Shown: in pieces, positions 31,410-56,370 of the stretch | How positions within the stretch are numbered: position 1 is the stretch's first letter | Layout of the letters: every line of letters begins with the position of its first letter | Source: Porpolomopsis calyptriformis | Lineage: Eukaryota; Basidiomycota; Agaricomycetes; Agaricales; Hygrophoraceae | Reading direction: 5' to 3' | NCBI GenBank assembly: GCA_951640195.1 | Contig: OX621168.1 | Coordinates: forward strand, 1,364,001 to 1,428,000 | Length of the DNA stretch: 64,000 nt | Made by a program: the position numbers and the translations under genes | Notes under the pieces: generated by a model | The model's input: only the letters and a program-made list of their open reading frames with translations | Databases searched by the model: none | What the model was told of the DNA's origin: nothing

Positions 31410-31798
31410 TTCTGGCCTACCGGAGGTGCTACGCCTTCATCATACGACTCTATCACGCGGAGAGGTATGAGTGGAGCCTTAGAGCACGGTCTTTGCGCAA
31501 GTGATGGAGTACTCCATCCCTCGATCGATTCTCACTCACTCTTCCCACCCACCACTCCCTAAGTCCTCGCGAACAAGGATCACACCTCAGAAGACCGGCT
31601 GGCGATGAAATGGATAGATGTTGAAGGAGAGTGGGTCTAACCTCATTGGTTGCAAGCGGTCGTCCCGGAGAGATTTCCATTTGCTCTCCGAGTCATTGGG
31701 CTGAACTTGGTTGGCATTAATTTTTGGAGGATGATTACAGTTTTTTGGCGAACGTGTTTACTATCTCAGCCTCCAGCGGAATCGAACCAAAGTAGACG
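31410..31798. other. Intergenic before F-box member C1
   Basis: About 390 bp. It should hold the promoter of the C1 gene: 'ggtctaacctcattggttgc..' and 'cgaaccaaagtagacgatga' resemble the lead-in of the other members. No coding evidence. Confidence 0.45.
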
Positions 31799-33270: not shown

Positions 33271-33750
33271 AGGTACGATGTTGCCCGTTTTTGGACACAT
33301 AAATAGATTAACTTGTCGGCTAGCTAAGAGGCAGAGTAGATTGGATGGGAATGCTCTGGCCATTGGCATGCAGGTGTCACTACCAGCAAGATTGCCGCAA
33401 ATGGTGACATGGTCCTGTCCAGGTTTTAAAATGTCTCGCGCTTTCCATCTTTTTCATTCGCATCTTGCAGTCCCGCCATAGCATTGTGTCCTGCAACACG
33501 ACATCAAACCAAACTATCATGTCGGTAGAACGTACACAACATTTGAGTAGGCTTTCCTCTCGGAAGACTGGCTGGCTGATGTTGCCTGTACGGATACATG
33601 TTAAAGGAGAGGGGATCTAACCTCATCAGTTGTAAGCGATGGAGAGCTTTCCGTTTACGTTCACACCCGGCTGGTGGGAAATTATAGATACAGCGCATTC
33701 AGTGACCCTTAGGTAAGTTGAACCCGAGTCATAGCCCACAGCCAACCAAT
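33271..33750 (+). promoter_or_regulatory. Spacer and displaced promoter of F-box member C2
   Basis: About 480 bp. The right end (33,690-33,750) contains gaccctta, then gtaagttgaaccc, then cacagccaacca. This matches the region just before the C3 start codon (56,328-56,370: gaccttaagttgatccgg, then cagcctcgcaaccaaagg). It therefore appears to be the original promoter of member C2, now separated from its ATG at 54,351 by the inserted 20.6 kb segment. Confidence 0.6.
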
Positions 33751-33756
33751 GTCGAC
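33751..33756 (+). repeat. Target-site duplication, left copy (GTCGAC)
   Basis: A six-base palindrome that also follows the right terminus at 54,344-54,349. Because it is palindromic, the duplicated length could be read as 6, 4 (TCGA) or 2 bp. Six is preferred because F-box relatives have similar sequence (gtagac, gtcaac) at this place before the ATG. Confidence 0.65.
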
Positions 33757-33782
33757 TACGGTCGGCGGGGGGGGTCAGGATT
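33757..33782 (+). repeat. Left terminal inverted repeat
   Basis: 26 bp beginning TACGGTCGGC, followed by eight G and TCAGGATT. It is the exact reverse complement of 54,318-54,343. The run of eight G is conserved in length at both ends. Confidence 0.85.
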
Positions 33783-35160
33783 GGGTTTGTCAGCCACTTG
33801 CCCCAAACGATACTTGCTCGTGGGGTCCTGGAACTCCGTGACGAGTGATATCCTTCTAGAGGTTAACATAGGCAAGCCAATTTGGGACTTATCAGATGCC
33901 CCTCAACGAACAAGTTGTTCATGAGTTACCAAGAGCTACCAAAAGTTACTCATGCTTTGACCAGAAAAGATGAAGCAACAAGAAACACCACCCAGCAACT
34001 TGCGGCTTATGGGAGACATCATGAATCACCTCAATGACAAAAGGTGTGGGCATATCGTGAATTGATTTATTAGATTTATAGTAAGAGTCCCAACAGGACT
34101 ATGTTGTGTCATACATACCAACAAACCCAGAATCCATGTTTGTTGGGCATGACTATTCTGCGCGGTATGTCGATGGCCATCTTTTGAAATTGGCTGAATG
34201 AGAATGGAATCTGCGAACAGGGGTAGCCCCAAAACCGTCCGTCATTTCCTCTAAGTGATTCAGCAAGCGCGAACAAACTCACAACTAGAGACGTAGCGGG
34301 TGGGAAATGGAACCCTTGACTACCTTGCGAACATGTACAACAATGTCAATTGACACATGTGTCACATTTGCGAGGTAATGGGGGTTTCTACCACCCTTAC
34401 ACAAATTACCAGCTATCTGGAATAGTGGATGAGTGTGATGTCCTATGCTTGAGACGAAGAGCTTGGGCGGAGGTGTAAACCTGGTCTTCTGTGAAACGGA
34501 AGCAATACGACTGGGACCCGCTCCCATGTCAAGTCACCTGGTTCTGATTGATTTGATAACGATAACACCTTGCGTGAAGGACAACTTTCTTCCCAATAAC
34601 TCATACTGTGAGTACATATCCCCTCAATCTGAATAAGATTTCAACACTAACCTTTCTCGCAAGTACTACCTGTCTCCTTTGGCCGCTAAACAGTTCTGGG
34701 GCACACCTACAATTCCATTTCAGCTATGGAAGTGTCCCTTCTTGGATCGGTCGGCACTGGCCAAGGCCTAAAGTGATTCAACAATCCTACATTTACATTG
34801 AGACAATCTTCAACATATGGTATAGCAGACACACCTTGGCATATGTACTATCATTGTTCTTCAAGGGCAAGCATGAGTGAGTACCCTCCAGAGTGCCTGA
34901 TTGTGGCGAAATGCCCACCAAGCATGTGTCTAAGGTAGGATGACTGCAAATTTTTTTCTTGAAGGCGTTGATTGGCATGCCAGGTTTGAATGTGGAGCCG
35001 TAGTTATCGAAGGACACTTGTGGGGAGGAAGCTGCGTGAAGATTTCCGGACTTATATTTTTCACCCCTCCAGGTTTGTGTTTGTGTTTGCACAGCACCCT
35101 AAGGCTTAGAACATACCACTTTTTCCAGAATTTTCGGTCCGACAATTTTTACCTGAACCC
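33783..35160. other. Left subterminal region of the DNA transposon
   Basis: About 1.4 kb with only short frames (up to 99 codons) and no recognised family. It presumably includes the promoter and 5' UTR of the alpha-kinase gene and the transposase binding sites. No claim beyond that. Confidence 0.4.
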
Positions 35161-35483
35161 ATGACTCAGTGCTCTGTCTGTCAATTTCACTTTTACTTAC
35201 TCCCGGCTGGCCAAGATGCCAAGTGTTCCAAATGCTTGGAAATTAGTCGGGTCTCTGAAGTTGAGGGTTTGGCCATCTTGGTTTGTGCGCGTCAGGTCTT
35301 ACTGAAAGGATCCACTAATTTCTTATCTTTTTCAGTGCAAGCCGCAATGCCTTATATGTGGAAACATGTCAGAACAACTAAAACAACCACTCTGTCCATC
35401 GTGCACTCACGCTCTCGGTAGGTTCCTCATTTTATCATATGGAAACAATACATTAGTAAATTGTTACCAGAATGTGGCGATTC

Positions 35484-35488
35484 GTTAA
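35484..35488 (+). repeat. TSD of the older chromovirus, left copy (GTTAA)
   Basis: GTTAA directly precedes the LTR start at 35489 and is repeated at 49445-49449 directly after the other LTR. Removing the element and one copy rejoins the alpha-kinase exon in frame. Confidence 0.9.
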
Positions 35489-35603
35489 TGTTATGTCGGC
35501 AGTCGAAACTCAGGTCGCTAGACGTGAAGCACGAAGAGCCCAGCGCATAAGCTGGGGGTGACAACGTTAAAGAACAAGTCTAAGGGAGATACAAGCGTTC
35601 TGT

Positions 35604-35608
35604 GCTCT
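35604..35608 (+). repeat. TSD of the younger chromovirus, left copy (GCTCT)
   Basis: GCTCT precedes the LTR at 35609 and is repeated at 42290-42294 after the second LTR. The intact right LTR of the older element has a single GCTCT at the same place, confirming the empty site. Confidence 0.93.
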
Positions 35609-35977
35609 TGTCACGGACATCTTTTTCCTTTTCCTCTTAGTCATACTTGATTAGTCTCTGTTCCGTCTATCCTTCCGTTTTACCATTCTATACATAGAGA
35701 CTGATCACATGTACCTTCCTTCCGACTCTTCACGAGTCACATTCCGTTTCCGATATTCTTTTCGTGACTCTTCACCAGTCACATTCCGGATTCCGCTTTG
35801 TAATCGTACATACGACTGACTCATGGCGACTCAGGTAGTTAGTATATAAAGCCTGATTTCTAGTCAGTAGGTTAAGTTCGATTCCTAGTTAGCTCCCCCA
35901 CTCTTTAGTCGAATTCCATTTCCTCATCAGCCCCTCCAACGCGAGAAGTAAAACCCTTCGACTACCGAATCATAACA
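35609..35977 (+). repeat. 5' LTR of the younger chromovirus
   Basis: Begins TGTCACGGACATC and ends ACCGAATCATAACA. It carries a TATATAAA box and a directly repeated motif (gactcttcac, then agtcacattcc), present twice about 50 bp apart. Confidence 0.94.
35843..35850 (+). promoter_or_regulatory. TATA box in the younger LTR
   Basis: TATATAAA, 234 bp into the LTR. The same box is at 42155 in the 3' LTR. It is the likely core promoter for the genomic transcript. Confidence 0.55.
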
Positions 35978-36152
35978 AGAATCGAACTTCCTTCTTGCGC
36001 ATCAAACCACTTCCACTCTGGATCCTGCTGAAGACTTAACAAGGTCAATCTTCTCATCTGCAGATTCAGATACTCCCTTTCAACCAATAGTATTCCAAAC
36101 CCCCGCACAATCCATCATCCCCCTTTCCCCCTCATCATCATCACTGACATCA

Positions 36153-37577
36153 ATGTCTCAACAAGAGTACGAAGCCGATCAATCCGTTCCCGCACCAGGA
36201 CCCAGTAACATCCCCCCTACCATTCAAGAAGAAGAAGAAGACGTCGTCCCATTTAACATGGAACAAGAGCTCAGAGATTTGAGAGCACAAATCGACCAGT
36301 TCCGCGGTTGGTACTACAACGAAGTCGACGTCAATGACGAGCTCCGAAAGGAGCTGAAAGCTCTCAAAGAAAGTCGACACGAAGAATCTGAACCAACCAC
36401 CCCTCCCCCACGACGACGATCTGTACTTCGGGGACCTGGACTTTCCCCCTCGAATCCTTTCGTTTATCCCACAAGAAGAACCCAATCCGTCCAACCTCCA
36501 TCCCAACCAACCTTTCCCACTCAACTACCCACCCAGACGACTGCTCCCCCCACACTTCCAGCCCCCACCAAAATCAAAATCGCCGATCCGACCGAGTATG
36601 ATGGAACCTCCGAGAAGCTTGAAGACTTCATTCATCAATGTCGACTCAACTTTGTGGTCAAAGACTACAACGATAAACAGAAGATCATCTATATGCTCTC
36701 CTACCTCGGTGACGGCAATCCACGGGCCTGGGGACGACTGTTCACAGAAGGAGCTGACAGGACGAGGAATTTCGTATGGGACTATGCAACATTTTTGGAC
36801 GATTTCAGGGAAGCTTTCGGAAGGATCAACCCAGCGGCGAAGGCGCGGATCGAGCTAGAGAAAGTGAAGATGACAGGAACGATAGAAGACTACAACCTTC
36901 GGTTCATGCAACACGCAGCAAGAACTGAGTACAACGAGACCGCTCTACTTCGGTTTTACAAAGCCGGACTTCCCCAGCCGATCCGAACGCGGATCTACTC
37001 GATGGATAATATGCCGTCGACTTTGCTGGACTGGACGACGAAAGCGGCCCAGTTCGAGGAACAGTACCAGGAACAACGAGCCGAACAAGCATTGTGGTCA
37101 AGTCGAGACCAAAAAGGAAAGAAGTCCGAAGCCAAATCGAGTCCACGAGGAAACCCTTCCCGCTCCATCACCACCACCACCACTTCATCCCCGATCAAAC
37201 AAGAATCGAGAGAAGCCTCTCTCAAGACAGCGAAACGAGACAACTCCTCCATCACTTGCTACAATTGTGGCAAAAAGGGACACTACGCCAACGAATGTCG
37301 AAGCCCACGTGCTGAAGACGTTCCGGCACGTCAAGAATCCTCAAACTCTACTCGAGGAAAAGGAGGAAATCGCGGTCGAGGCAAAGGACGGAATGTCCGA
37401 ACGATCAATCGGGTCGATACAGAAGAATCAGAAGCGCGGATAGAAGAAGTACCAGAGGACGACGAAAAGGAAAAAAGGATGGCAAAGGACGACTTAAAGG
37501 ATATGGGAATCGCAAATTGGAACAAGGAGAGACGGGCTGCGCTAGCTCGAGCGTTAAAAGAGCAAAAGGATTTTTAG
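36153..37577 (+). CDS. gag: Gag of the younger chromovirus
   Basis: A 474-residue capsid/nucleocapsid protein. Residues about 35-75 are acidic and helical. The capsid-like core (residues about 150-310) includes ADPTEYDGTSEKLEDFIHQC and RNFVWDYATFLDDFREAFGR. A CCHC zinc knuckle (CYNCGKKGHYANEC, about residues 365-380) binds RNA. The tail is charged and glycine/arginine-rich. The stop at 37575 lies inside the start of pol, which is in the -1 frame, so pol is probably made by -1 frameshifting or reinitiation. Confidence 0.92.
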   Translation: MSQQEYEADQSVPAPGPSNIPPTIQEEEEDVVPFNMEQELRDLRAQIDQFRGWYYNEVDVNDELRKELKALKESRHEESEPTTPPPRRRSVLRGPGLSPSNPFVYPTRRTQSVQPPSQPTFPTQLPTQTTAPPTLPAPTKIKIADPTEYDGTSEKLEDFIHQCRLNFVVKDYNDKQKIIYMLSYLGDGNPRAWGRLFTEGADRTRNFVWDYATFLDDFREAFGRINPAAKARIELEKVKMTGTIEDYNLRFMQHAARTEYNETALLRFYKAGLPQPIRTRIYSMDNMPSTLLDWTTKAAQFEEQYQEQRAEQALWSSRDQKGKKSEAKSSPRGNPSRSITTTTTSSPIKQESREASLKTAKRDNSSITCYNCGKKGHYANECRSPRAEDVPARQESSNSTRGKGGNRGRGKGRNVRTINRVDTEESEARIEEVPEDDEKEKRMAKDDLKDMGIANWNKERRAALARALKEQKDF

Positions 37578-40500
37578 TCCGGCCAAGTGCTAAAAGCCCG
37601 AGCACTTTGGCTGTGTCCCATGTATGTGTACCACCATCTATGAGAAGTTTTCGTTTTCTTGGCACACTTGAACAGGGCAAAGGCGCTCTCGAATTCTATC
37701 TTTGGATCACGAGTGCCGACAATCTTCGACGAGTGGCTATCATAGCACTCATTGACTCTGGCGCCTCAGGGAATTTTATTGACGAAGCATTCGTTCGTCA
37801 AATGGAGATATCGACCTATCTGTTGGATGAGGTTATACCGGTACGAAACGCTGATGGTTCCGAGAACCGAGGAGGTCCCATCACGCACGATACAGACCTG
37901 TTTATTGAGGCACCAGATCTATCCTTTCGAGAACGAATCCGGTTGGAGGTCACCAACTTAGGAAAAAAGCAACAGGTCATCCTCGGCTTCCCATGGCTCT
38001 TGCGACACAACCCCACCATCAATTGGACAAAAGGCACCTTAACCTTTGCGTCTGGTGACACGCTGTTCAGTAGTATGCGAGTCGGAGTGTTGCCCCCACA
38101 GGAAGAACTCTACGTCTTCGATTCGAGTCTGAAACATGACTCCTTTATCCGTTTGGTCGGAGTTGACCACTCCCGACCAGTTTCCATCGAGGAGGATATC
38201 AAATCCTTTATTCCCAGTCGTTATCACAATTTCTGGCGTGTTTTTCATACCGCAGAATTCGACAAGCTTCCTCCTCGACGTTCTTTTGATCATGCGATCA
38301 ACCTCTATCCGAACACCAAATTTCAAGTCGGAAAACTCTATCCCCTTTCCCCCTATGAACAGGTGGAACTTAATAAGTTTGTTGACGAAAATCTCAGAAC
38401 AGGTCGGATACGTCCATCGAAATCACCGCAAGCTGCTCCCTTCTTCTTTGCGAAAAAGGCTGAAGAGATCAATGCTAAAGGTCTCAGTGCTGGTCTACGT
38501 CCCATCCAGGACTATCGCTACATCAACTCAAAAACCATTCCTGATCGTTACCCCCTTCCCCTTCTATCGGAAATCCTCCAAGTACCGAAGCTTGCTACTG
38601 CTTCACTCTTTACAGTCATCGATATTCGATGGGGATTTAACAACGTACGACTCAAGGAAGGTGACGAATGGAAAGCAGCTTTCATCACCAACCGAGGACT
38701 CTTCGAACCGACCGTTATGTTCTTTGGACTACGGAACTCCCCAGCATCTTTCCAACGAATGATAGACGTTCTCTTTAAAACCGTTCTGGACTCTGGCTGT
38801 GTCCACATTTATATTGACGACATTCTCATCATGGGCGACACCCCCGAGGAAATCCGCCACTGGACTGACGAAACCCTCAAGCTTATGGAGAAGAATCAAC
38901 TATCCGCCAAACCCGTCAAATGCCAAATGGAGAAGACCTCTGTTACATACCTTGGTACAATCATCAGTAAAGGTCAACTCGCTATCAATCCAAAAAAGGT
39001 AGACGCCATCATCAATTGGCCGACACCCCAAAAGCTGCGAGACCTCCAGTCCTTCCTTGGCACCACCAACTTCTGGCGTCGTTACATCAAAAGTTTCTCC
39101 TCAGTCGTTCGTCCCCTCTGTGGCCTTTTGCGGAAAGACCAACCTTGGGATTGGTCTCCCTTGTGTCAAAAAGCCTTTGAGCAACTCAAACATCTCGTCA
39201 CTACAGCCCCTGTCCTTCTTACCCCGCGGCCAGACCTTCCTTACCTCTTGGAGACTGATGCCTCAGATTTCGGTATTGGCGCAGTCTTATCTCAGAAACA
39301 CGACAACGGTTGGCACCCCGTTGGCTTTTTCTCAAAGTCTCTACTCCCTGCCGAGTACAACTATCCTACCCATGATCTGGAGATGCTTGCAATCGTCACT
39401 TCCCTCAAATATTGGCGTTATCTTTTAGAGGGCGCAAGGGATACTGTGTTGATAAAGACGGACAATTTAGCGCTCAAGTATTTTATGCAGAACAGATCCC
39501 TCTCCAGACGACAAGCACGTTGGATGGAATTCTTAGGCAGATTCGACTTCAAAATCGAGTATTCCCCTGGAGTCAAAAACAAAGCCGATGGACTCTCCCG
39601 CCGACCCGACCACCGTCATACAGAAAAAGAAGAATTAGAAGGCCAAGCCCTCCTCCCTCCCGAACGTTTCATCAATGCTATCATTTCCATGTCCGAACCT
39701 TCCTTTATGTCAAGACTTCGCTTCCCCGACTTCAACGAAATCCCAGAGGACATTCGCATCAAGTTATCCGATCCCTCTTCCGGCTACTCCTTCACTGACG
39801 GAATTGTGAGAGATGCAGGAGATCGTATTGTCGTGCCAGCAGACGTATTGCTACGCACAGAGATAATTCGATTGACCCACTCCCTGCCCCATGGAGGCCA
39901 TCCCGGAATCGAGAAGACACGTGAGCTTGTGTTGCGGAACTACACCTGGAGTAGTGCTGCCCCTGACATCCGTGTATTCGTATCATCCTGTCCGACCTGC
40001 CAACAAGTCAAGCTCTATCCTTCAAAGCCTGCAGGTCTCCTGGAACCCATTCCCCCTTCGTCTCGACCTTGGAAAGAAATCACCGCCGATCTAATCGTGG
40101 AACTCCCCCAATCATCTGGCTACGATGCTGTCTTAGTCGTTGTCGACCGCTTCACCAAGCGCGCTCACTTTATTCCGACGACATCAAATATTTCTGCAGA
40201 AGGAGTCGCAAAACTCTTCAGGGACAATGTATGGAAACACCACGGCTGGCCAAAGAAGATCATAACCGATCGAGGAACTCAGTTCGCTTCCAAATTTGCG
40301 AAAGCTCTCAACACTCATTTGGGAATCATCTCCGGTCTATCTACCGCTTATCACCCCCAAACTGATGGTCAAACGGAACGTACCAATCAAGAACTCGAAT
40401 AATACCTTCGTTTGTATACAAACTTTATGCAAGACGATTGGTCCAACTGGCTATCCCCAGCTGAATTCGCTTACAATAACCGACAGCACTCCTCGACGAA

Positions 40501-41137
40501 ACACACTCCCTTTTACCTTGATACTGGCCAACATCCCTTCGTCCCACCTGTCCCTACGGCCCCTACTTCCAACCCCGCAGCAGATACCTTCCACGATCAT
40601 CTCACAGAAGCCCGTGAAGAAGCCACAAAAGCTCTAGAAACAGCGGCCGAAACCATGAAACGCTTCGCAGATCGCAAACGGAAAGATACCCAACTCCAAA
40701 TAGGTCAATTTGTTTATCTTGATACTCGTAACTTAAAAACAGGTCGTCCAACCCTCAAACTTGATGTCCGACGCACCGGACCGTTCAAAATTCTAGAAAA
40801 GATCGGAAAAGTCTCTTATCGCCTGGCCCTCCCCTTATCATGGAAAATACACGACGTCTTTCACGTTTCACTCCTGAGACCCGCTAACATTAACTCCGAT
40901 CTCCACCTAGAGGAAGTAGATGATAATCTCCGTCCACCTCCGGATGTCATTCAAGAGAAAGAAGAATATGAGGTCGAACAAATTCTCCAACATCACGGGT
41001 CCACCCGACGCCGTACGTATTTGGTCAAATGGGTCGGCTATCCCATTGAAGAAGCAACCTGGGAACCGAAGAAGAACCTCCTCCATGCGAAAGAACGAAT
41101 TCTAGAATACGAACAATCAATTCAAACGGCGACCTGA
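37517..41137 (+). pseudogene. pol: Pol of the younger chromovirus, one nonsense codon
   Basis: The frame covers about 1,200 codons. In order: aspartic protease (ALIDSGASGNFID), reverse transcriptase (YPLPLLSEI, then the catalytic YIDDILI), RNase H (LETDASDFGIGAVLSQ), integrase zinc-binding HHCC (ending CPTCQQV), and integrase core (ADLIVELPQSSGYDAVLVVV, TDRGTQF, YHPQTDGQTER). After the TAA at 40400-40402 come the rest of the integrase and a chromodomain (YEVEQILQHHGS then RTYLVKWVGYPIEEATWEP). The stop follows NQELE, where relatives have Gln, so one C-to-T change (CAA to TAA) explains it. The rest is open. Confidence 0.93.
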
Positions 41138-41261
41138 TCACTCTTTCACGGTATCAACTCCCCTCGTTTATATTTTCACTTTTGTCACCTTTTCCAAACT
41201 CCGACTCTTCCTTATAATCTCTTTCGTCTCCGTCTTTCACTCTCAAGAAATCGATCTCGCT

Positions 41262-41840
41262 ATGCCCGCCGAACGCTCACATCAAACTGCCCGCAAGTCT
41301 ACTGGTGGTCGTCCACCCCGCACTCCTCGCATGTCCACTGGAGGGCAACCCCCTCGTCGCGCCCCCCCTCCGCTCGCTTCCACCTCCTCCGCTTACGGTG
41401 AAGCCGAGCTCGCCGGACAACTCTGGCAGCACAACCGTCGCGCACGAAATCGAGACCTTCCCATATGGCCAGAGGAAATCGTCGCTCCACCTATCCCGCC
41501 CGAGCAGATCATCGAGTCGCTGCAGAAAGATATCGATTATTACAAGAACGAGATCGCAAGACTAAACGAAGAATTGTACAACCAAGGAATGAGTTTGGAC
41601 GGAAAGAGAAGAGCGAGTGAGTACTGGCGGGAGCAGGCCAAACACTGGGAGGCGAAGTACGAGGAAGTCACAAAGGTACTTCCCCATCTTGATTCTCCAG
41701 TTCCCCCTGTTTTCCCGGGTCCACTCATCGTCCCCCCCGGTTCGTCGTCGAACCCCATCACCATCCCCGACGACGGCGATATTTCCCCGGTCGACATTAT
41801 TTCCCTGTCGACCATCGCCTCCAACAAGGACTCAATCTAG
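41262..41840 (+). CDS. Third ORF of the younger chromovirus, unknown function
   Basis: 192 codons between pol and the 3' LTR, starting MPAERSHQTARKSTGGRP. The first 60 residues are basic and proline-rich. Residues about 85-140 form a likely coiled coil (SLQKDIDYYKNEIARLNEEL, then RASEYWREQAKHWEAKYEEV). The C-terminus is proline- and serine-rich. No signal peptide or membrane segment is seen, so it is not an envelope. Its place after pol and its intact frame suggest a functional accessory protein. I do not recognise the family. Confidence 0.65.
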   Translation: MPAERSHQTARKSTGGRPPRTPRMSTGGQPPRRAPPPLASTSSAYGEAELAGQLWQHNRRARNRDLPIWPEEIVAPPIPPEQIIESLQKDIDYYKNEIARLNEELYNQGMSLDGKRRASEYWREQAKHWEAKYEEVTKVLPHLDSPVPPVFPGPLIVPPGSSSNPITIPDDGDISPVDIISLSTIASNKDSI

Positions 41841-41920
41841 TCCTTCCCCTCCTCCACACCCTTCAACACTCTCGAAGCCGCCTCGAATTTCGGGACGAAA
41901 TTCCTTTTAGTGTGGGTGTA

Positions 41921-42289
41921 TGTCACGGACATCTTTTTCCTTTTCCTCTTAGTCATACTTGATTAGTCTCTGTTCCGTCTATCCTTCCGTTTTACCATTC
42001 TATACATAGAGACTGATCACATGTACCTTCCTTCCGACTCTTCACGAGTCACATTCCGTTTCCGATATTCTTTTCGTGACTCTTCACCAGTCACATTCCG
42101 GATTCCGCTTTGTAATCGTACATACGACTGACTCATGGCGACTCAGGTAGTTAGTATATAAAGCCTGATTTCTAGTCAGTAGGTTAAGTTCGATTCCTAG
42201 TTAGCTCCCCCACTCTTTAGTCGAATTCCATTTCCTCATCAGCCCCTCCAACGCGAGAAGTAAAACCCTTCGACTACCGAATCATAACA
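41921..42289 (+). repeat. 3' LTR of the younger chromovirus
   Basis: Matches the 5' LTR over its full 369 bp by eye. The preceding 'cttttagtgtgggtgta' is in the position of a polypurine tract. Confidence 0.94.
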
Positions 42290-42444
42290 GCTCTACTTAT
42301 ATCTACCTGGGCCTGGGCTGTGATTGTGATAACCACGGCGACGATCCATGAAACGGCTGACTAATGTGCAGCACTGTATGGCTTTGCGCAGCTACTGCGG
42401 AGCACGTCTTTATCGACCAATGGCGTTATCACCTCTAATCTATG

Positions 42445-42520
42445 AGAAGATAAGATAAGAGATTAGATAAGATGAGATAAGATAAGATCAAATCAAAGAT
42501 AAGATTAGATAAGATGAAAA
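42445..42520. promoter_or_regulatory. GATAAG cluster in the older LTR, left copy
   Basis: Seven GATAAG hexamers plus related gattag and gatgag units in about 75 bp, all on the same strand. They fit binding sites of fungal GATA factors. The same tract is at 49,330-49,405 in the other LTR. Confidence 0.5.
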
Positions 42521-42806
42521 AGGAAAGTTGTTGGGGTGACAAAATGAAGTGACCGTAACATCACCCTCTCTTCAAATTTGCGTCTGCGCGACATTAGAAT
42601 AGGCATTGGAGATGTCTTGAACAATCTCACAATAACCACCGAGGCGCATAACAGGGAGAGGTTGGGAGATGGTATTGATACCGTTGACGAATTTCCAGAG
42701 CGGACAAGGGAGAGACTAGTTGGTACATCCAGAGCATTTGACCTTAGCCGTTCAGCCGTAGAACAGTAGTTACAGCATTGACAGGACTGGACTTGTAGAT
42801 CCATGC

Positions 42807-45800
42807 TCAATGAGCGGATGAAGGTAGGCGGGGGAGGAAGATGGAACCATCGAAATCGCGTTCGAGTAGTTGGTCGACTTCTGTTGGGTGGAGCGGGATG
42901 AGAACGTCGATGTTGTCATTGACCTTAGGTGGCTTGTAGTTCTCGCCGGTGGAGTCCGTGATCGGATCGTAAAGACGTTCATCAATCCCGAAGAAGTCGT
43001 CCATACAGATGACGCGTAGTCGGAGTTGAGGAGCTGGTTGATCGGAGTGGAGAGTATGGAACTCATCAACTAATTCCCGAGCATTCCTGATGTTTGATTC
43101 GGGTTCCCAGGTGTTTTCCTCACTGGTGTAGCCTTCCCAGTGTACCAGGTATTGAAGTTTTCCTCGTCGCAGATGAGAATCCAGAATTTCATTGACGACG
43201 TATTCGGAGTCATCTTCTAGTTGGATTGGGGGAGGAGGGGCAGGTTTTTTCTGATTGGGAAACGAAGGGGAGCGATAGGGGGAGAGGTAAGATTCGTTGA
43301 AGACTGGGTGGAGTCCTAACCATTCGTGGGGGAGATCGAGTCTGTAGGCGGAGCAACCAACCTTTTCAATGACCTTGAAGGGACCAAAGCGTTTGCTTCG
43401 AGCTTCTTCATTGGTCATTTGGTCTTGATGTTGGTGGCAGCCAACCACACTTTATCTCCTGGTGAGTATTCTTGTATGGTTCGGACATGTTTATCGTGGG
43501 CAGTCTTTATGGTCTCATTCGCTCTCTTGAGGGCGGACTCGGCTTCTTGGTGGACGTTTTTCATTCAGTTGGCGAATTGAGTCGCAGATTCATTTCGGAC
43601 TTCTCTTTGGGTGTCGTTTCCTTTCCAGGGATTCTGGCCATAATTAACGTAGAAGGGAGTCTGTTTCGTGGCTGTGTGAACTGAGTTGTTGTACGAAAAC
43701 TCAGCTAATGCAAGCCATTCCTTCCAATTATCCTGACGATGATTGACGAAGACGCGAAGATACTGTTCGAGCGTCTGGTTCATTCGTTCAGATTGGCTAT
43801 CAGTCTGGGGGTGATAAGCTGTGGAAACATTCTGGGAAGTGCCCAGAAGGCGGAAGAGATCGGTCATATATTTGGAAACGAATCGCAGATCGCGATCATG
43901 GATGATGCGTCGGGGGACACCATGGTCTCGAATGACACGGTCCCGGATAATCTTGGCGAACCCTTCGGAGTTTAGTTCGATGTGGGTAGCTTCGAACTTA
44001 ACAGCCTTTGAGAAGTGATTGACGATCGTAAGGATCGCGTTGTAGCCCTGACATTCGGGTATGGGGCCTACGAGATCGACTGTGATCGTATCCCAGGGTC
44101 GAGGAGGAGGATCGAAGGGGTGCAACGGGGTCTTCGCGGGCAATCGAGATGCCTTGGTGCGTTGACATGTTTCACAACCACGGACATAGGTTTCAACATC
44201 TCTCCTGATGGTGGGCCACCAGTAGTCGCGACATACGGCTTCGGAGGTCTTGAAGGAGCCATAGTGTCCAGAGAGAGGATTGTCGTGGCATTGAGCGATG
44301 ATTTCGCCACGGAGTGGGGTGTCCTTTGAGACGTAAGTTCGGCCCAAGAAGGTTTTGACACCATTGTCCCAGGTTTTCCAATCAGTTTTACGTTTTTCTT
44401 GAAGGAGTGTAACTTGTTTTTCAGAGTTTCGGTATGAGTTCCGAATGCGAGAGTGGAAATTAGTGGGTTCAATCTCATGTTGAACCTGACGGAGATCTAC
44501 AATAGGGTGATCCGAGGCGGGGAAGAGATTAGGTGGGAGTAAAATAACATCGTCATTGTCATCCACCCCCCTCTCAAAACCCGGTCGTCTCGACAGGATA
44601 TTGGCCTTGGAATTGGCCCTGCCGGCGACATGGTGGAGAGTGAAGTGATAGTCCTGAAGCTCCGTGAGCCACCTAGCTTGGCGCCTGTTCAGCTTCTGAG
44701 GCAACTTGAAATACTGGAGGTTGGCGTGATCCGTCCAAACCTCAAAGATTTGCTTGGCTGACAGTAGCCATTTGCGGAACTCCTGGAATGCAGTCATGAT
44801 TGCGAGCAACTCGCGGTCGTAAATTTGGTAATTTCATTCTGTGGGGGTGAAAGCCTTGGAGACGTAGGCGATGGGCTTCCAAACATTGTCTTGTTTTTGT
44901 GATAATATAGCACCCAAGGCATAGTCTGAAGCATCAGTTTCCACACGGAGTAAGTCGTCATCGTTAGTGATAGAAAGAATAGGAGAAGTGGTAATGATTG
45001 TTTTCAGGGCGTCGAAGGCATCCTGGCATTCAGTGGTCCAGTCGAAAGGAGTGTTTCCAGTTAACGTATTGAGAGGTCAAGCAATTCCGGCGAAGTGATG
45101 GATGAATCGACGATAGAAATTGCAGAATCCAAGGAAAGCTTGGACGTCTCGCTTGCATTCGGGGGTTGGCCAGTCAGTGATCCCTTGGACCTTGACAGGG
45201 TCCATCTTGACGTGGCCTTCTGACACGATGACACTGAGGTATTCCACTTGGCGTTGATCGAAGTCACACTTCTCTGGCTTGAGGTAGAGTTTATGTTCGC
45301 GAAGTGTGGTCATAACTTCGTAAACATGTTGGTGGTGCGTTTCGAGATCCTTGTCGAAGATGAGGATGTCGTCTATATAGACCAAGACGTGTCCTTCAAT
45401 GATTTGGATGTGGAAGATGTCGTTCATCATGTTTTGGAATGTCGCGGGCGAGTTAGTGAGACCGAAGAACATGACAAGGGGTTTGAATAGGCCGCGGTTG
45501 GTTCGGAATGCAGCCTTGTGTTCATCTCCTTCCTTGATCCTCACATTGTTGTATCCCCATCGAACATCTAGCTTAGTGAAATAGCGAGCGTTCTGTAGGG
45601 TATCAATCAGTTTGTTGATCAAAGGGAGGGGATATCTGTTCTTGACAGTCATATCATTGAGCTTTCTGTAGTCCTGGATAGGGCGTAGTCAACCATCCTT
45701 CTTCTTAATGAAGAAGAACGGGGAGGCAATGGGGGAAATTGATTTTCGAATTCGTCCAGTGTGAAGGTTCTCTTCCAAGAACTCATCCAATTGAGCATGT

Positions 45801-46975
45801 TCGTCCATGGAGAGTGGGTAAACCTTGCAGTCAAGCTTCTCTTCGGTTCCGGGGAGAAGTTCAATTGCGTGGTCCCAGGGACGACTTGGGGGGAGTTCAT
45901 CAAAGTCTTCCTTGGTGAAGATGTCTTGGAATTCGTGGAGGTATTCGGGGACAATTTCCTTCCAGGTGCGGTCCTTCTTCTGGGCTTCCCAAGCCTTGAT
46001 TGCGAGATCCTGTGACTTTGTTCCTATTAAACGAATCTGGATGGCGGGGTTAAAATCAACCATGAGTAGTTGATCGCCATCCTCAAGAGTGAGTTCGTTG
46101 GTGTTGACGGAGTCAGGGAGGGGAGAAGGATGACAGTCCGGGGGGCATCAATCGAGAACAAGGGAGTTGGCCTTCCAATCAATGGAGGGGTTGTGAATCT
46201 TCAACCAGTCATGACCGAGGAAAATTTGGGATTTGCTGAGGTTCGTGATACCAAAGTTAATCCGTTCAATGTGGGTGCCAACCTTGAGCTCAAGCGTGAC
46301 CATTTCGGAGATGGGTCCCTCCGAGTTGGGTTGTCCATTGGCATTGTGTACCGGAATGGGTCGAGCGAGTTTGGTAGTGTGAAGGTCATTCTCGCGAACG
46401 TATTTGATGTCAATACATGAACCTTCGCAGCCGCTGTCGACAAGAGCAGTTGCGATATGTTCGGCACGATTGTCCAAGGTAGTGATGATAGTCTTGAGGG
46501 TTAATTGATTCCTGGAGCCTGAGCCTCGAATGAATACGTGGGGTTCTTTGAGTTCGTTGAGGGCTTGAATGGCATTCTCCGTTGAGAGGGCATTGATCTG
46601 ATCGATCGTGGTCTGAGTCATTTCTAGCGATCAGGCGGGGTGAGACCATTTTGAAAGAATTGGGATTGCAAAATTAGCCTGTTCTTTGATAGCGTTAACA
46701 ATTTCTAAGGGGGAAGAAAGAGAGTCAATGTCGATTGAGTCGACAGAAGATTCGGGAATGGGGGAGTCGGGGAATTCAGGGCACTCGGTGCTTTCATCTG
46801 GCATAGACAGTGGGGGATGAATTTCATTGACGGGCTTGTTGGTATCTAATATTGTACATGCCGTCGTACTAGTACAAAGAATGGAAAGGGGGGAAGAGGT
46901 AACAAATGGGGTGTCCGATACTGTCTGTTCACAATGCCAGAGTAGGCATGATTCCATCGAATAGAGTGAGCGCAT
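42807..46975 (-). pseudogene. pol: Pol of the older chromovirus, multiple TGA codons
   Basis: One frame runs from 46975 to about 43,420. It holds protease (ATALVDSGCEGSCID), reverse transcriptase (YPLPLINKLIDTLQNARYF, VYIDDILIF), RNase H (ETDASDYALGAILSQ) and integrase (CETCQRTKA, VDLVGPIPECQGYNAILTIV, YHPQTDSQSERMNQ). It is interrupted by TGA at about 46629, 46149, 45690, 45078, 44836, 43566 and 43407. Each stands where Arg (CGA) is plausible. A one-base deletion near 43,395 then changes the frame, and a chromodomain follows (SEYVVNEILDSHLRRG, HWEGYTSEENTWEPES). No TAA or TAG interrupts the frame. Confidence 0.9.
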
Positions 46976-46977
46976 CT

Positions 46978-48132
46978 CTATCGACCGTTGCCAAAATCCT
47001 GTTCGTTGTTGTCGGGGGCGGGCTCAGTGGAGTTGTGTTCCTCTGCGGAAAGGAAATTCATTAACTCGGTGATCTCGTCGACGGTCAGTTCATGCTGGAG
47101 GGCGCGAATGTTGACCTTCTTGAGTTCTTGTGGGCATTCCTGATGGAAATGTCCAGTTTGACCACAGTTGTAGCACCTGTTGGTTTGGTGCATTTTGCTC
47201 AGGTCCATCGGCAGACCCTGTCCTCTGTGGATGGTGCCAGATGGCACTTGCTTGTCCTGGGGAAGAGGGGCGTGGAATCGTGGAGCGGAGGGACGAAAGG
47301 CCGGGCGAGAAGGAGGGGCAGATGGACGTTGGCGGCGTTCCTGATCATGGAAACGCTCTAGTAGCTGTCCAATAGCCACAACCTTGTCGTGGTACCTAGG
47401 GTATGTGGTGGGGAGCGGGGGTGACATGTAAATTTGACGAATAATGCCTTGGTTGACATTTTTCTCAAGGATCCGGATGCATTCTTTATCCTGGCCGACA
47501 AGGCCAGCTTGGCAGAACAAGAGTTCCAACTTAACGAAATAGTCTATAATACCTAAATGTCCTTGTGAAAAGTGTTCGACTTCCTCACGGGCACGTTGCT
47601 CTGTGGCATGGTTGGTGAAAACAACATTCAAAACATCTACGAAATCCTTCCAGGGGCCGAGGGGGAGGAGGTTGCCGGTGACGGGGTCCGTTCGGCCAAA
47701 GAAGGCATCCACGTATTGCTGGGCCCATTCGGCGGCGATGCCTTCCTTCATGTACGACAAGGTGACAAGAATCATCTTCTCGGGGTCCGTGACTTCGCTG
47801 CCCCGAAGGAAGATGATGACCTGGCGGAACCAGTTCTTGTACAGTTTTTTGTCGCCATTGAAGATGTCGGGCTGAGCAAGTTTGATTGTTTTTGAGATGG
47901 AAGCCATGGGAGCTGTTGGTTGCATGGGGGGAAGTGGGTTCGGGTTCGAAGGCGGTGGGGGAGATGAAGAAGGGGAAGGAGCTGGGGAGAAATGAGGGGA
48001 AGGATTCTGTTCAGGGGAGGGAGAGGACTCCTTTGGTGGAGGAGAGTCTTTCGGTTTCCGGGGGGTTTCCGGAAGTGGTCGTTGCGGGGTGGCGGAGGTG
48101 GTTGCCTTCGAGGGAGAAGGAGAAGATGACAA
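46978..48132 (-). CDS. gag: Gag of the older chromovirus
   Basis: 384 residues with a proline/serine-rich start, a capsid-like core (DIFNGDKKLYKNWFRQVIIF, then AEWAQQYVDAFFGRTDPVTG) and a CCHC knuckle, CYNCGQTGHFHQEC, near residue 320. It is open throughout, unlike the neighbouring pol. Upstream (48,140-49,050, same strand) further proline-rich coding-like sequence with stops may be an extended N-terminus. Confidence 0.8.
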   Translation of the reverse strand: MSSSPSPSKATTSATPQRPLPETPRKPKDSPPPKESSPSPEQNPSPHFSPAPSPSSSPPPPSNPNPLPPMQPTAPMASISKTIKLAQPDIFNGDKKLYKNWFRQVIIFLRGSEVTDPEKMILVTLSYMKEGIAAEWAQQYVDAFFGRTDPVTGNLLPLGPWKDFVDVLNVVFTNHATEQRAREEVEHFSQGHLGIIDYFVKLELLFCQAGLVGQDKECIRILEKNVNQGIIRQIYMSPPLPTTYPRYHDKVVAIGQLLERFHDQERRQRPSAPPSRPAFRPSAPRFHAPLPQDKQVPSGTIHRGQGLPMDLSKMHQTNRCYNCGQTGHFHQECPQELKKVNIRALQHELTVDEITELMNFLSAEEHNSTEPAPDNNEQDFGNGR

Positions 48133-49058
48133 GCGAGATAGGGGTTGGGGTGGTGTTCAGAGAAAACAGGGATGTCCAAACACGTAGGGCGAGGATGTAT
48201 CTGTGGGTCGCGGAGAAGGGGCAGGGAGAGTGGTAGGTCCGAGAATAGAGAAGACGGAAGGAGTCGAGGGGTCGAGGATCTGAGATGATAAGGGTGAGAA
48301 TACCCCTTCAGATGTGTCGACGGCGTCCTGGAACTCTAATTCGTCGTCTGTGAGCCTGTAGCTTGGTCGACGGGAACCTGCACGGGGAGGCGTGGTCGCA
48401 GGTTATCTCGGATGTGGATCTCTCAGATGCGAGAAGATCCGCGACGGTAGAAAACACAGATAGAGGAGGCGAGAAAGTTGGCAATGAGAGCCGGGGAACG
48501 ATAAACTCTGATTTGAACGCGATTGAACGTTCGCGGTTCGATTTCGACGAAGGGGTCTAATCCGTCGTCCGAAGAATCCGGGGGGGAGGGGGCAGTGTAA
48601 TACGAGTCCAAAGAAGAATGAGACGAGGCAGGGGAAAGGTTGGCGGAAACGGGAGGAGTGATATTGAAAGCGAGGTGGGAGAACTCGAGCGTAAGAGCTT
48701 CAAGCTGTTCTCATTCAATGTCTAATGCATCGACGGCCTGTTGTTCCGAGTAGCTAATGAGCTGACTGGACGAGGTCTGAGGAGATTGGTGTGGTGGGGA
48801 ATAGGATGGGGGCGGAGTGGGGGAAGAACGATCCAGGGTGGTGATCACTCTTGATACTGTGCGAGGATGTGCCTAAGCGTCTCTTGTGGTTCTCAAGGCG
48901 AGAGAGGATGGGTCGGTCGGGGGAGCCTGGTTGGGATTCCGGGGAGGCAACAGTGATGGCGTTGTTTGGTAACCCAAAACAATGCGGTCGGTGTCAGATG
49001 AATCTTGACCAGCGACTCTTGCGGAGAAAAGCGAGGTGAGTGGAGAGACTTGTTCTTC
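48133..49058 (-). other. Leader region of the older chromovirus
   Basis: Lies between the 5' LTR and gag. It contains decayed coding-like sequence on the minus strand (SPPDSSDDGLDPFVEIEPRT, then RVQIRVYRSPALIANF) interrupted by stops. It is either an extended gag or an untranslated leader. Confidence 0.45.
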
Positions 49059-49444
49059 TGTTATGTCGGCAGTCGAAACTCAGGTTGCTAGACGTGAAGC
49101 ACGAAGAGCCCAGCGCATAAGCTGGGGGTGACAACGTTAAAGAACAAGTCTAAGGGAGATACAAGCGTTCTGTGCTCTACTTATATCTACCTGGGCCTGG
49201 GCTGTGATTGTGATAACCACGGCGACGATCCATGGAATGGCTGACTAATGCGCAGCACTGTATGGCTTTGCGCAGCTACTGTGGAGCATGTCTTTATCGA
49301 CCAATGGCGTTATCACCTCTAATCTATGAGAAGATAAGATAAGAGATTAGATAAGATGAGATAAGATAAGATCAAATCAAAGATAAGATTAGATAAGACG
49401 AAAAAGGAAAGTTGTTGGGGCGACAAAATGAAGTGACCGTAACA
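49059..49444 (-). repeat. Right (5') LTR of the older chromovirus
   Basis: 386 bp, uninterrupted, the reference for the split left copy. It has the same TGTTA...TAACA ends and the same GATAAG tract (49,330-49,405). It is followed by the TSD GTTAA at 49445-49449. Confidence 0.93.
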
Positions 49445-51681
49445 GTTAATCCCGCTTGACCTCCTCAAAAACAGAGCCATTCGTGCTCAATTGATTGGTG
49501 AAACCACCACTAACGCCCCTTCACACAGTGACACTATATCTGTCTTTGACTGGGCAGCTCAGTTTCAGTGACAGGCAGTAAACTTGCATTCCGGAAACAT
49601 AGTGTGTACTAGTTGGAATACAAGCACCAACCGAAACCTCAAGCGTGCAAACACTACTCAGAAATTCCTTCGAGAGAGGCAAGACAAGAAGGACCAGTAC
49701 ACACGCGCCGTCGCTGGATATATAAAGGTCCATGTTCATATGTACAAGTGGCCATACCGTGGTGAAAAAACTCAAAAAGAGAAGATGCAAAAGGTGAGTA
49801 ATGTTAGAACTATCCGAAAATCCAACACTTACATCTATTACAACAAGATTGCGGACATTACTATGAAACATGCGTTTTCTCCTGATGACAAGGCAGAGAA
49901 AGCCCTGGATCAGCTCTTAACTATCGTCAACACAGAGCATGTTAAAAGTTATCCTGGCGCAGAGTCTTTCAACTAGTAATGTCAACAATTTTGCTTCTAC
50001 AACGAACGCTCATATCTTGTCATTCATAGGGAAAATGTTTCTATGTATTTTCATGGATCCAATGAGGGCTGTTTTGCAAAATTTTCCATTGACGATATCA
50101 GCGAAATATCAATGGCTGGATTCTTTCAATATTTTATCTGGCTTGGCTTCGGGACCAAAAAATCGTTGTCCGATCGCAATGTTGACCTTAGGTTTGTCTA
50201 CGACGAATCTACTATCATCCGTATTTCCACTGTCTCTTAATTTATGTGTGCTAAATCCTGGCCAGTTTCCTTTCTTACAAGACAACTATTGCAAGGATCT
50301 TCAATCGGCTGCCCAACTTTTGGGCAAGAAGCAAAAGAGAAATATTCATCTAGGATCGCGTGTGTCTTCATCTGTTGCTCCTCTGCACATACCTTTGCGC
50401 AGTGCCTTTGTGGTTCCTCAAGACCCTCTGCAAGAATCAGCTGATCCATTGCCACTCTACTGTCATTCCCCCCCCTTGAAAACTATCGAATTTATAAAAT
50501 GCATTGCTGATTGCGAGGAGACCCTCAAAGTTTATGTTTATGCTGACTTGCGTGAGAAGATTGAAATCGCAATGGATTGGAAGGAAGGAAAAGAACTTGC
50601 TGAGAATGGGGAGCTGGCGATGGCGGCCAAGACAGGGTATATTGCAACCAGATACAATAAAACTGCGATCTATGTATGTGTTTCTCTACTGCCCTTCGTT
50701 TGGTGTCTCTCAATACTGGCAGGCTCACTATCGTGGCGAGGAATATGCATTCCTTACAGTTGCAGATCCTGATCAGGCATTCCAGGAATTATACCTAACC
50801 AGTGAATTGAAGCTATTAGCGATCAGCAGCAAGTTGAAAGTTGAGTTTGATAACTACACCCAGAAGTGTGGGGTGACACTGCCACGTATGTCTAACAGCC
50901 AATTTGGATTCTCTACTTACCAAACTTGGTTGCAGGGTTTCATGTTAATTTTGACGGCGCATTCATGGGAAAGGTCCTCGAACTAGACAAAACTCTCCCA
51001 TACTATTTTCTTGCTACTCCCCTGCTCCCAGCCAGCTTTGACAAATGAATCATCAAGTTCACTGGGAATGATAACGTTGGCCCAGCCCTGGACCCTCTGA
51101 CAAAGGTCATGCACGCATTCGCGCACTTCTCGGTAAGGTATATGAAAGGTCATTTGCTGCTTTGCGACTTGCAGGGTATGTTCCCCACATTCTAGTCTAC
51201 TACATCATTGTTAGTGCTGATAATATCTCAAGGACTTTACAATCGTAATCAAGTAATGACCCTTATTGATCTGCAGGCTCACATGTACGTACCGGTTCAC
51301 TCTTACATGCCTTGATTAACTAGCATTGTTTAGGGTCAAAAAGGACTATAAAATCTACTGGGATCTCAGTCAACCTGCCATAGTGAGATTTACAAATGAG
51401 CACGGAAAAGCTTGCAAGACAAACGAATTTTGCAATCATCTTAACAATCAGGTGAAGGTTGATGAGGATGAACAGCTCGAGGATTGCGAACGCGAATCGT
51501 CGGTGGAATACTCTGCCCCGAGAAAGCAGCGTAGGGGAAGAGCAAGGCCAATCCGAATTGGTATGCAAATACCCCATTTCTCATGCTTCCGCAACCTCAT
51601 TAAAACTTATGCAGGGTTCCCAAATGAGTCGGGTTAATTACCACAATGAACCGGACTGATATTACACTTGTACAATTATGC

Positions 51682-53316
51682 CTACTGATACATCTGAGTG
51701 TACATCATCATGAAAATGTCCCAAATATTATCGTATGAAAGTTTGACTACATGAAGGGTATCATAGATTGATTGAGCCTGTTGTGAAAACTCAAGTGATG
51801 CAAATTGAATCAAGTGTTCGCCTCCAAGCTCCTCCTTTATAGCTCTGATCAATGACACGTCAACCAGGATCAGGCAATCTCGTCCACCCCATTTCTCTGG
51901 GAGGCTGTATGCTTGGTTCCGCGACATCCCTAAGGGGCCAGGTTTGTCACGCATCTTTCGAATTCGTATGCCATTGCGCAACTCTACAAACTTCTTGGAC
52001 TCTTGACAGAGTAAAATCGCCCACAACCACTGGCAGAGTTCTCTGATAAAATGTAATCAGACACAAAGATGGACGTAAAGGTGGGGACGTACACTTGATC
52101 TGGATTACTTAGGTCACACTTCCCATCATCAATTCCAGCCCTGTAGAAGACAATGGCATTGTCTGAAAAGTAAAAGCGCATTCAGACCCAGCTACGTTCA
52201 ACACTGATGTTGTGAATGCTACGTATGTGGACATGTGTTGGGAGGATGGTATTGTCAAGTTCAGGGGCAAAATGCTCTCTGTATTGGTAGCATAAATTGG
52301 TTATAACAACCTAAGAGTCAAAGAAAAACAAACTGTAGGCTATTAACGACTCCAAAAAGCTTGCCTGTCTCGGTCCCACAATCTGTTGAGAGCTGTATTG
52401 GAATACCTGGAATCAGATATCAGATATCGAAGGGGGGGACATCTGAATGTCATACCACCATGCCTCTCAACCACATCAAGGAAACAGTATGTAACGATAT
52501 TTGCATCCTGGTTATTTGGCACAATGTAGGTGCCAAGAAATTTGCCTGTCGCATCATCTATGAATGAGTAAATGGGAAAACCAATCGCATTCATCTTGTC
52601 ATGGCCATCCGCAGCCCAGCGCTCATTAGGCCCAACAGGATACTTCGGAAACCTCAAGACCTTTTGGGCACACGGCTGACAAAACAAGAACCCTTCTGGG
52701 TTAGATCAGTGCATTACCTCTGATACAAAATCTCTATATAACAATATCAGTTATCTCAGAGTGTAAACTTAACATGAGGGGTTACCGGCTGAGATGGATG
52801 CCAGAGTGATAAGCAATGTTATGCATGACCATCGTAATACCCTAGCGATTGGCTGGGTCTTTGTCTAACTAGGCAAGGACAAGTTGTTCTTTCTCATTTT
52901 GTGACATATCTTCTTCTTTGGAGCGGCTCCCTCGCAATCGAAGTGCTTCCGACGGCGCTTGACTGTTGATGCACTGCTGTTGTTAATCACAGCCAGGTTA
53001 GTTGTTTACCAGTTAATACGTGACATACGGACCTCATCTCAATGTTGTATTCAACTTTAAGACATTCCGATATGGTCTTGTTGCTGGTGAGCTTCTCTTG
53101 GTGGTAATTTGCTAAGGCAATTTGAAGCGTTTCATCATCTTCCTTCACTGGATGAAGATGTTTAGTCAGCTTCAGATATGCATGGTGTAATCCTACATGT
53201 TGGAGCGTATTGATTGTGCCCATTTGGGTTATGCAAAGACATTCGACGCAGGTGTTTGTGGGGATCAGACATTTAAGATTACATAGGACGAATTGGATAC
53301 ATCCGATTTTTCTCAT
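51682..53316 (-). pseudogene. Integrase-core (DDE) transposase-like gene of the DNA transposon
   Basis: A spliced minus-strand gene. The N-terminal exon has a helix-turn-helix-like ALANYHQEKLTSNKTISECL then VEYNIEM, spliced to STVKRRRKHF. The catalytic part starts GPNERWAADGHDKMNAIGFP then IYSFIDDATGKFLGTYIVP (first Asp). After an intron comes IPIQLSTDCGTETGKLFGVV (second Asp), then RSIHNISVERSW (Glu). The C-terminal exon has SRNQAYSLPEKWGGRDCLIL. This matches the repeated 'integrase core domain' proteins of mushroom genomes. Two TAG codons (near 52,874 and 52,847, within LVLA*LDKDPANR*G), both where Gln is expected, and an apparent frameshift near 52,915 show it is inactive. Convergent with the alpha-kinase gene, 45 bp apart. 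Confidence 0.72.
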
Positions 53317-54317
53317 CAGTCCTACTTGGACGAAGCCCAGTTGCGCCAGTTAGAGAAACACAAAATCAGCCAAAGCTCATTATCTGTCCAGCCAAGGCCC
53401 ATTATCCATCCTGCAGCAAGCCATCCACAATCATATACAAGTCCTTATTTCAACAAGAAGCTTCCAGTTCCGGTGAAGGCATTTGATAGACATAGTAAGC
53501 TAGTAATCTTTGCGTCGTCTACGTCTTTCTCATTTTGATGACCGACATATATTCAGTATCTCTTATGACTTAGTCTGGCTAGAGCTATCTTACTCTAGAA
53601 TTCGTCCGATGTGGACAGGAGTACCAATGTGAAAGAATAAAAAGCCAGTAAACAGGGACCGTTTCATCAGTAAAATGTTTTTGAGGTATGTGTACGTATC
53701 TTCAGGCCTTATCAGTCACTGAAGGGTGTCTTTCAAAGGGTGATTCAGTGATTTTGGGTAACATCTAATTCCCTTGCGACGCTCCATTGCTAACAATGTT
53801 ATGCCAGTCTTGCGCGATCAAGCGTGATCCCAGGGGTCACCAGTACAACATGAAATACAAGCTTGTTCACCCCGCTATCTAACTCTTACTGCATTTTCAA
53901 AATCTTTTATGGCCTCAAAAATGACGCCCAGGGCAATCCAACCGAAACTTTGGGTTCTGAAAACTCCTCCAAAATGGACAAGTGCCAAGCACTCTGGGCT
54001 ATTCTAACCAACCCTTCAATGAGCGTCATTGAATGATCATAAGTTGCGCAAATCATCTGCAACTCGGAGGTGTATCGACCAACGAGTTAACAAGTGCCTT
54101 GAATTAATGCGATTAGTGTCAGTTGGAAAGAATTCAGAAACGCAAGCCTCCACCTCCATGGCCATCAGGATTGGGTTGCCATTATCATATGGTAGTGGGT
54201 TTCGATACCGATGCGTATAATTATTATTTACAATGTGTATTTAATTATTATTTTCTTCAATCACGCATAACGCTTAGAGACCCCAGTACATTCGGCAGAG
54301 GGTGCCGAGCTAAAGTT
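53317..54317. other. Right subterminal region of the DNA transposon
   Basis: 1 kb between the transposase-like gene and the right TIR. One 81-codon frame on + starts at 53,293, overlapping and divergent from the transposase N-terminus. It matches no family I know. Otherwise AT-rich, with no feature I can support. Confidence 0.4.
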
Positions 54318-54343
54318 AATCCTGACCCCCCCCGCCGACCGTA
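54318..54343 (-). repeat. Right terminal inverted repeat
   Basis: Exact reverse complement of the left TIR (AATCCTGA, then eight C, then GCCGACCGTA). It is followed by GTCGAC at 54344-54349, a single G, and the ATG of F-box member C2. Confidence 0.85.
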
Positions 54344-54350
54344 GTCGACG

Positions 54351-55805: not shown

Positions 55806-56370
55806 TGACGCTATATTGCTTCATTTTTGGACACAGCTGGCTACAGAGCAGGGTGACTTGGTATAGGAATGCTCTGGCCACCGGCATGCGAGTGTCAGTA
55901 CACTGCCCGCGAATGGTGACACGTTCGGTCCCCGTTCAGTAACTTGGTTTTTTGGCGCTAAGCTAGCGGAGTTTGCTACACTGCTAGGCTGTCAGACTTA
56001 GCTGCACGTTACTGTCCAGGCCCTTTGTGTCAACGTTTGTAATGTTTGCATTGCCGCACTCTCCATCTTTCTCATTTGCATCTTGCAGTTTTACCATGCC
56101 ATCGGTGTTCTGCAGCGCACGACATCCATCAAAACCATTACACCATAAGAATATACACCATATCCTACCGAAATTCACATCGCAGAGTCTGCAACCTGGC
56201 TTTCCTCTCGGAGGACTGGCTGGTGTTGCCTTATGGAAGGAGAAGGATCTAACCTTATTGATCATCCTGGAGAGTACCTCAGAGTGGTTTTCTGTCTGTT
56301 TTAATAATCGATCGATCAATTATCTATGACCTTAAGTTGATCCGGACAGCCTCGCAACCAAAGGTCAACA
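55806..56370. other. Intergenic before F-box member C3
   Basis: About 565 bp. It includes the recurring flank 'catttgcatcttgcagt', 'gagtctgcaacctggctttcc' and the promoter-like lead-in gaccttaagttgatccgg before the C3 ATG. No gene. Confidence 0.5.

Follow-up and report, generated by a model that had tools for sequence, protein, structure and literature searches.

Immediately ahead of an F-box gene, the 64,000-nt stretch of Porpolomopsis calyptriformis DNA analysed here (the window) carries a 20.6-kb segment with inverted-repeat ends. What is this segment, how did it come to lie there, and what did it displace? The exact 32-bp reverse complements claimed at 33,751-33,782 and 54,318-54,349 were both confirmed on re-reading the sequence and constitute the only inverted pair in the window (16-base seed, at least 24 bp). 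By rough arithmetic that assumes equal base use, an exact pair of 32-mers is expected by chance about 1e-10 times in 64 kb. When the entire genome (33.5 Mb) was searched with up to three mismatches, the 32-mer was recovered at two places, namely the two ends themselves, and a reversed control pattern at none.

The limits of the element within these repeats are revealed by a related end elsewhere in the genome. The 400-bp right end, used as a query, matched contig C13 over 39 bases (95%), up to window position 54,343, just inside the GTCGAC of the window element; the C13 TIR, TACGGTCGGCGGGGGTGATCAGGATT, is followed on its outer side by TCCGCC. Because this copy stops at CCGTA amid other flanking DNA, CCGTA is the end of the element, the terminal inverted repeats (TIRs) measure 26 bp (TACGG..CCGTA), and the outer GTCGAC represents a 6-bp target duplication, as the original prediction had proposed and as is also supported by a paralogous empty site (see below). 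The left duplication (33,751-33,756) lies directly outside the position at which the C13 copy ends, and its right counterpart (54,344-54,349) was read directly from the sequence; the left TIR (5'-TACGG..., 33,757-33,782, plus strand) and the right TIR (...CCGTA-3', 54,318-54,343, minus strand) are those found in the inverted-repeat search of the window. A looser TIR pattern (three free bases, 3 mismatches) returned the same three places, and its reversed control also returned one. The C13 TIR is a lone end, and no corresponding duplication was apparent to the eye on the far side of it. The probability that the inverted repeats are a product of chance or an assembly artefact is practically nil: no supporting point was found, and the exact 32-bp match, the third TIR copy on C13, and the empty-site alignment all stand against it.

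The interior of the segment was resolved by sequence self-comparison. The 20.6 kb do not form one element: within the limits set by the TIRs and the target duplication, what would have moved is a DNA transposon of 6.6 kb, which was enlarged by two nested Gypsy elements. The outer of these, Gypsy-2 (35,489-49,444, minus strand, including Gypsy-1), has 386-bp LTRs with TG..CA ends, of which the right one is continuous (49,059-49,444) and the left one split (35,489-35,608 and 42,295-42,560). The LTRs differ at 8 of 386 positions, all eight being transitions, and the element is flanked by the 5-bp duplication GTTAA (35,484-35,488 and 49,445-49,449). The one minus-strand ORF of Gypsy-2 that was scanned encodes RNase H and integrase zinc-binding (H2C2) domains above the cut-off and an integrase core (rve) below it. 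Gypsy-1 (35,609-42,289, plus strand), identified by its LTR pair and domains, is inserted into the left LTR of Gypsy-2 between copies of GCTCT (35,604-35,608 and 42,290-42,294). Its LTRs (35,609-35,977 and 41,921-42,289; 369 bp each, TG..CA) are identical at all 369 positions, and its single long ORF encodes protease, RVT_1, RNase H, H2C2, and rve in this order, all above the cut-off. With their TG..CA LTRs, 5-bp duplications, and the protease-RT-RNase H-integrase order of Gypsy-1, the two elements agree with Gypsy LTR retrotransposons; apart from the position of one within the LTR of the other, they are ordinary.

Without the nested unit, the DNA transposon comprises 6,626 bp in two arms. The left arm (33,757-35,488) carries no recognised protein domain, as none of the eight ORFs scanned exceeded a Pfam cut-off. 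The right arm (49,450-54,343) contains a decayed DDE transposase of several exons (51,688-53,230, minus strand), whose sequence from 53,230 to 51,688 aligns piecewise to residues 6-415 of an agaricomycete protein of 420 aa (P0001); the gap at residues 55-65 is filled by a second relative (P0004). The pieces from the window alone matched no Pfam family, and the domain context comes from the relatives, which comprise 27 agaricomycete proteins (E ≤ 0.001) among 739 candidates; 12 of them carry a PF24764 annotation and one a PF00665 annotation. In hmmscan, P0004 matched rva_4 above the cut-off (31.6 bits), and P0001 matched both rve (26.9 bits) and rva_4 below it. At the D, D, and E positions, the relic still reads DGHD, TDCGTE, and SVER (the catalytic D within DGHD is an assumed choice); its aligned frames contain four or more stops, excluding one in a probable intron. 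All three motifs were found in 12 of the 27 relatives (D, D, E in 11; N in first place in P0005), with a D1-D2 spacing of 58 throughout and a D2-E spacing of 42 (11 proteins) or 45 (one protein). Each of the remaining 15, several of which are short, lacked a match to at least one motif.

Convergent to the transposase gene lies the remnant of an alpha-kinase domain (51,049-51,192, plus strand; PF02816, 31.9 bits versus a cut-off of 21.3), which was also recovered in a genome-wide alpha-kinase search (C6:1415034-1415180, with one TGA inside). The alpha-kinase gene probably once ran upstream towards about 49.6 kb. With the joined alpha-kinase ORFs of the window as query, none of 133 candidates was related, and the first part of this query is probably in the wrong frame. 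The hallmark of Starships is a captain, a tyrosine recombinase with DUF3435; this domain was not seen in the 17 longer ORFs of the arms that were scanned.

The genome-wide alpha-kinase search yielded 36 family matches, including that of the window, and 23 of them share the same span and score. The latter constitute a second alpha-kinase type, with L041-L060 among its loci. Five loci were compared with locus L056; four are 99.9-100% identical to it over 3,348 bases, and the fifth is 96.6% identical over about 2,100 bases. Two loci of this type had no tblastx match to the alpha-kinase stretch of the window. Five copies on contig C16 are spaced exactly 49,281 bases; at other sites, neighbouring copies are frequently separated by 44-53 kb and many lie near contig ends, so these loci are perhaps part of large tandem units at chromosome ends.

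The combination of termini and genes points to the IS3EU superfamily. In the available excerpts of the published accounts, the TET+ IS3EU elements of rusts are described as having 6-bp duplications, TIRs of more than 30 bp, and TAYGG..CCRTA ends, and all TET+ IS3EU elements as carrying a TET/JBP gene between oppositely oriented transposase and alpha-kinase genes (Kojima 2025, PMC12730594); complete IS3EU elements are said to end in TA..TA and, as a rule, to duplicate 6 bp (PMC10045372). IS3EU is also named among the repeats annotated in Ganoderma (PMC8955403) and in Phlebopus (PMC12411881). Like the fungal elements described by Kojima, the window element has a 6-bp duplication (GTCGAC), its TACGG..CCGTA ends fit the TAYGG..CCRTA pattern, and its alpha-kinase (plus strand) is opposed to the transposase (minus strand), as stated for the TET+ families; the domains of the relatives and the D, D, E positions are those of an integrase-like DDE transposase. 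It differs in the length of its TIRs (26 bp versus more than 30 bp), although the latter value is stated for the TET+ subset of rusts and not for the superfamily, and in that the window ORFs scanned revealed no recognisable TET/JBP gene, this gene likewise being a feature of the subset in those excerpts. Moreover, its genes are decayed and the element is interrupted by two LTR retrotransposons, which is not the case for the elements in these accounts.

Membership in another DDE superfamily with 6-bp duplications, such as GingerRoot, hAT6, or another integrase-like group, is unlikely. GingerRoot forms one lineage with IS3EU and shares the 6-bp duplications and mostly TA..TA ends with it and with the window element (PMC10045372), and hAT families with 6-bp duplications exist (PMC12730594), but the excerpt that describes GingerRoot does not mention an alpha-kinase companion, the TACGG..CCGTA ends together with the opposed alpha-kinase fit the excerpted description of fungal IS3EU elements (PMC12730594), and the relatives of the transposase are integrase-like (the rve match of P0001 being below and the rva_4 match of P0004 above the cut-off). 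The case for an IS3EU element, which is made by comparison with published descriptions, is strong but not proven.

The family is sparsely represented in the assembly; all copy counts from genome searches with arm, right-end, relic, and transposase queries are lower bounds. The left arm returned only itself. Searching with the right end recovered, besides the query itself, three places: a relic on contig C10 (69%), the single TIR on C13, and the element's own left TIR. Hence, other copies that end at the same TIR with duplications of their own, which had been suggested as proof of mobility, did not come to light in the same genome, as the searches recovered no second full copy and C13 is a lone end. 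In the C10 relic (C10:1037480-1037720, locus L013), left-end and right-end sequence lie close together and the middle is missing, as would be the case in an internally deleted, non-autonomous copy, which it resembles; it shares a 31-base piece with the left arm, and as a query it recovered only itself and the window element. A query of 120 aa of the transposase recovered at least two places, the window and a relic on contig C12 (73%; locus L012, C12:1294000-1303900). In the C12 relic, the E of the relatives is replaced by K, and there are two stops, one within the aligned exons and one in a probable intron; with this substitution and at least one stop in that copy, no intact source of the family was seen in the assembly. 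A search of the 9.9-kb C12 locus for TAYGG..CCRTA ends gave nothing convincing (best candidate, 13/26 with 3/6). The relic is flanked by what we take to be a NACHT/WD40-like gene on one side and a TFIIB-related factor on the other.

A genome search for PF24764 yielded 38 matches, from which the window and C12 copies are absent. Among eight stretches compared, the PF24764 elements on contigs C4, C11, and C13 (L061, L062, and L063) share 99.9% identity across 6.6 kb or more and have a common border, ...CCCCTCAAA, the compared stretches covering one border. This border shows that the domain does not imply TAYGG ends; it marks another family, and the elements were rejected as a reference for the termini of the window element. 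Judged by their sequences, they probably represent a recently active family distinct from that in the window. Between contigs C1 and C9, two stretches of almost 10 kb each (L064/L065 and L066/L067) correspond in opposite orientation, with identities of 99.4% and 99.5%; since the two stretches are about 64 kb apart on either contig, a duplication of tens of kb between the contigs is likely.

The F-box gene next to the right end (54,351-55,805, plus strand, from the ORF list) encodes 484 aa in one open frame, with PF12937 and PF00646 above the cut-off, and only a single base separates its ATG from the right GTCGAC. It belongs to a tandem array of F-box-like genes and fragments on the plus strand (24,325-33,270 and 54,345-57,867), of which five were recognised by Pfam and two more (at 26 and 28.5 kb) by DNA similarity. 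With the F-box protein as query, 2 relatives were found among 7,995 sequences scored.

The array provides a paralogous reference for the site before insertion. When the flanks are joined, the predicted lead-in ...CAACCAATGTCGAC-G-ATG is present, as is the lead-in quoted for the next paralog (C3; ATG at 56,371), GACCTTAAGTTGATCCGG..GGTCAAC-A-ATG. The reconstructed empty site was put to the proof in a global alignment, in which positions 33,271-33,756, joined to 54,350 onward, were compared with the sequence from 55,806 to the ATG at 56,371; with one GTCGAC retained, the joined flanks and the stretch ahead of the paralog form a single alignment that crosses the junction. The left flank (33,271-33,756) against the whole intergenic region before C3 reached a score of 219, with identity at 329 of 409 aligned positions. 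The highest score among 200 single-base shuffles was 19.5 (mean -16.6), and the element's own right end (486 bp) scored -17.5, the 280/391 identical positions in this control being due to low gap costs. At the junction, the joined site is GTCGAC-G-ATG, and its counterparts in the paralogs are GTCAAC-A-ATG at 56 kb, GTAAAC-G-ATG at 24 kb, GCAGAC-G-ATG at 26 kb, and GTAGAC-G-ATG at 31.8 kb, a pattern that fits a single copy of the hexamer. Short extensions across the junction are weak when taken alone, as the joined sequence also ran 16 bases into the transposon end (585-957 versus 54,328-54,700); the empty-site reading relies on the global alignment and on local matches, in collinear order, between the left flank and 55,848-56,223.

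The displaced upstream region of the F-box gene (33,271-33,750, plus strand), which aligns to 55,806-56,371 ahead of the next paralog with collinear local matches, comprises about 480 bp of conserved DNA that now lies 20.6 kb from the coding sequence. A relative of this DNA is located about 6.6 kb past the end of the window. Of the 'split promoter' in the original prediction, the displacement of conserved upstream DNA is borne out by the alignment, and loss or replacement of the promoter of the F-box gene would be the natural inference from sequence beyond that. It is unlikely that the gene now takes its promoter and leader from the transposon's right end; in that case, the insertion would have re-wired and not silenced this member of the array, and the frame would have stayed open for this reason. 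A literature search found no report of transposon insertion at basidiomycete F-box promoters, which is no proof of its absence in print.

The two arms have observed over expected CpG ratios of 0.56 and 0.65, against 0.91 for Gypsy-2, 1.05 for Gypsy-1, and 0.85, 0.85, and 0.90 for three flanking stretches, figures that compare stretches of differing content without a statistical test. CpG depletion follows the same order as the nesting, i.e., arms, Gypsy-2, Gypsy-1. The sequence itself shows the termini, the duplications, the nesting, and the fact that upstream DNA was displaced, and it is highly probable that an IS3EU-type transposon entered GTCGAC by the F-box ATG and decayed before Gypsy-2 and then Gypsy-1 brought the segment to 20.6 kb. 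In this history, the 6,626-bp DDE transposon would have inserted one base ahead of the ATG of a gene in the tandem array and duplicated 6 bp, presumably by cut-and-paste catalysis, bringing along genes for a transposase and an alpha-kinase, encoded on opposite strands. After its decay, Gypsy-2 would have entered it at GTTAA, and last of all, Gypsy-1 would have entered the left LTR of Gypsy-2 at GCTCT. It is very unlikely that the 20.6-kb segment was mobilised in its entirety, both retrotransposons included, as the enclosing TIR pair would allow: each Gypsy element has its own 5-bp duplication and a complete LTR pair, LTR identity and CpG content suggest that the two are progressively younger than the arms, and the transposase relic has stops, although all these points are compatible with a later move in trans.

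The probable IS3EU-type transposon and the two Gypsy elements form a clean three-layer stratigraphy, in which target duplications, LTR identity, and CpG depletion agree on the order of events. The element adds a well-preserved example to known kinds of mobile DNA. The pair of transposase and alpha-kinase genes, which the available excerpts describe for IS3EU elements of rusts and one truffle, is seen here in an agaricomycete. Although the element is otherwise ordinary, the paralogous empty site reveals what its insertion displaced.
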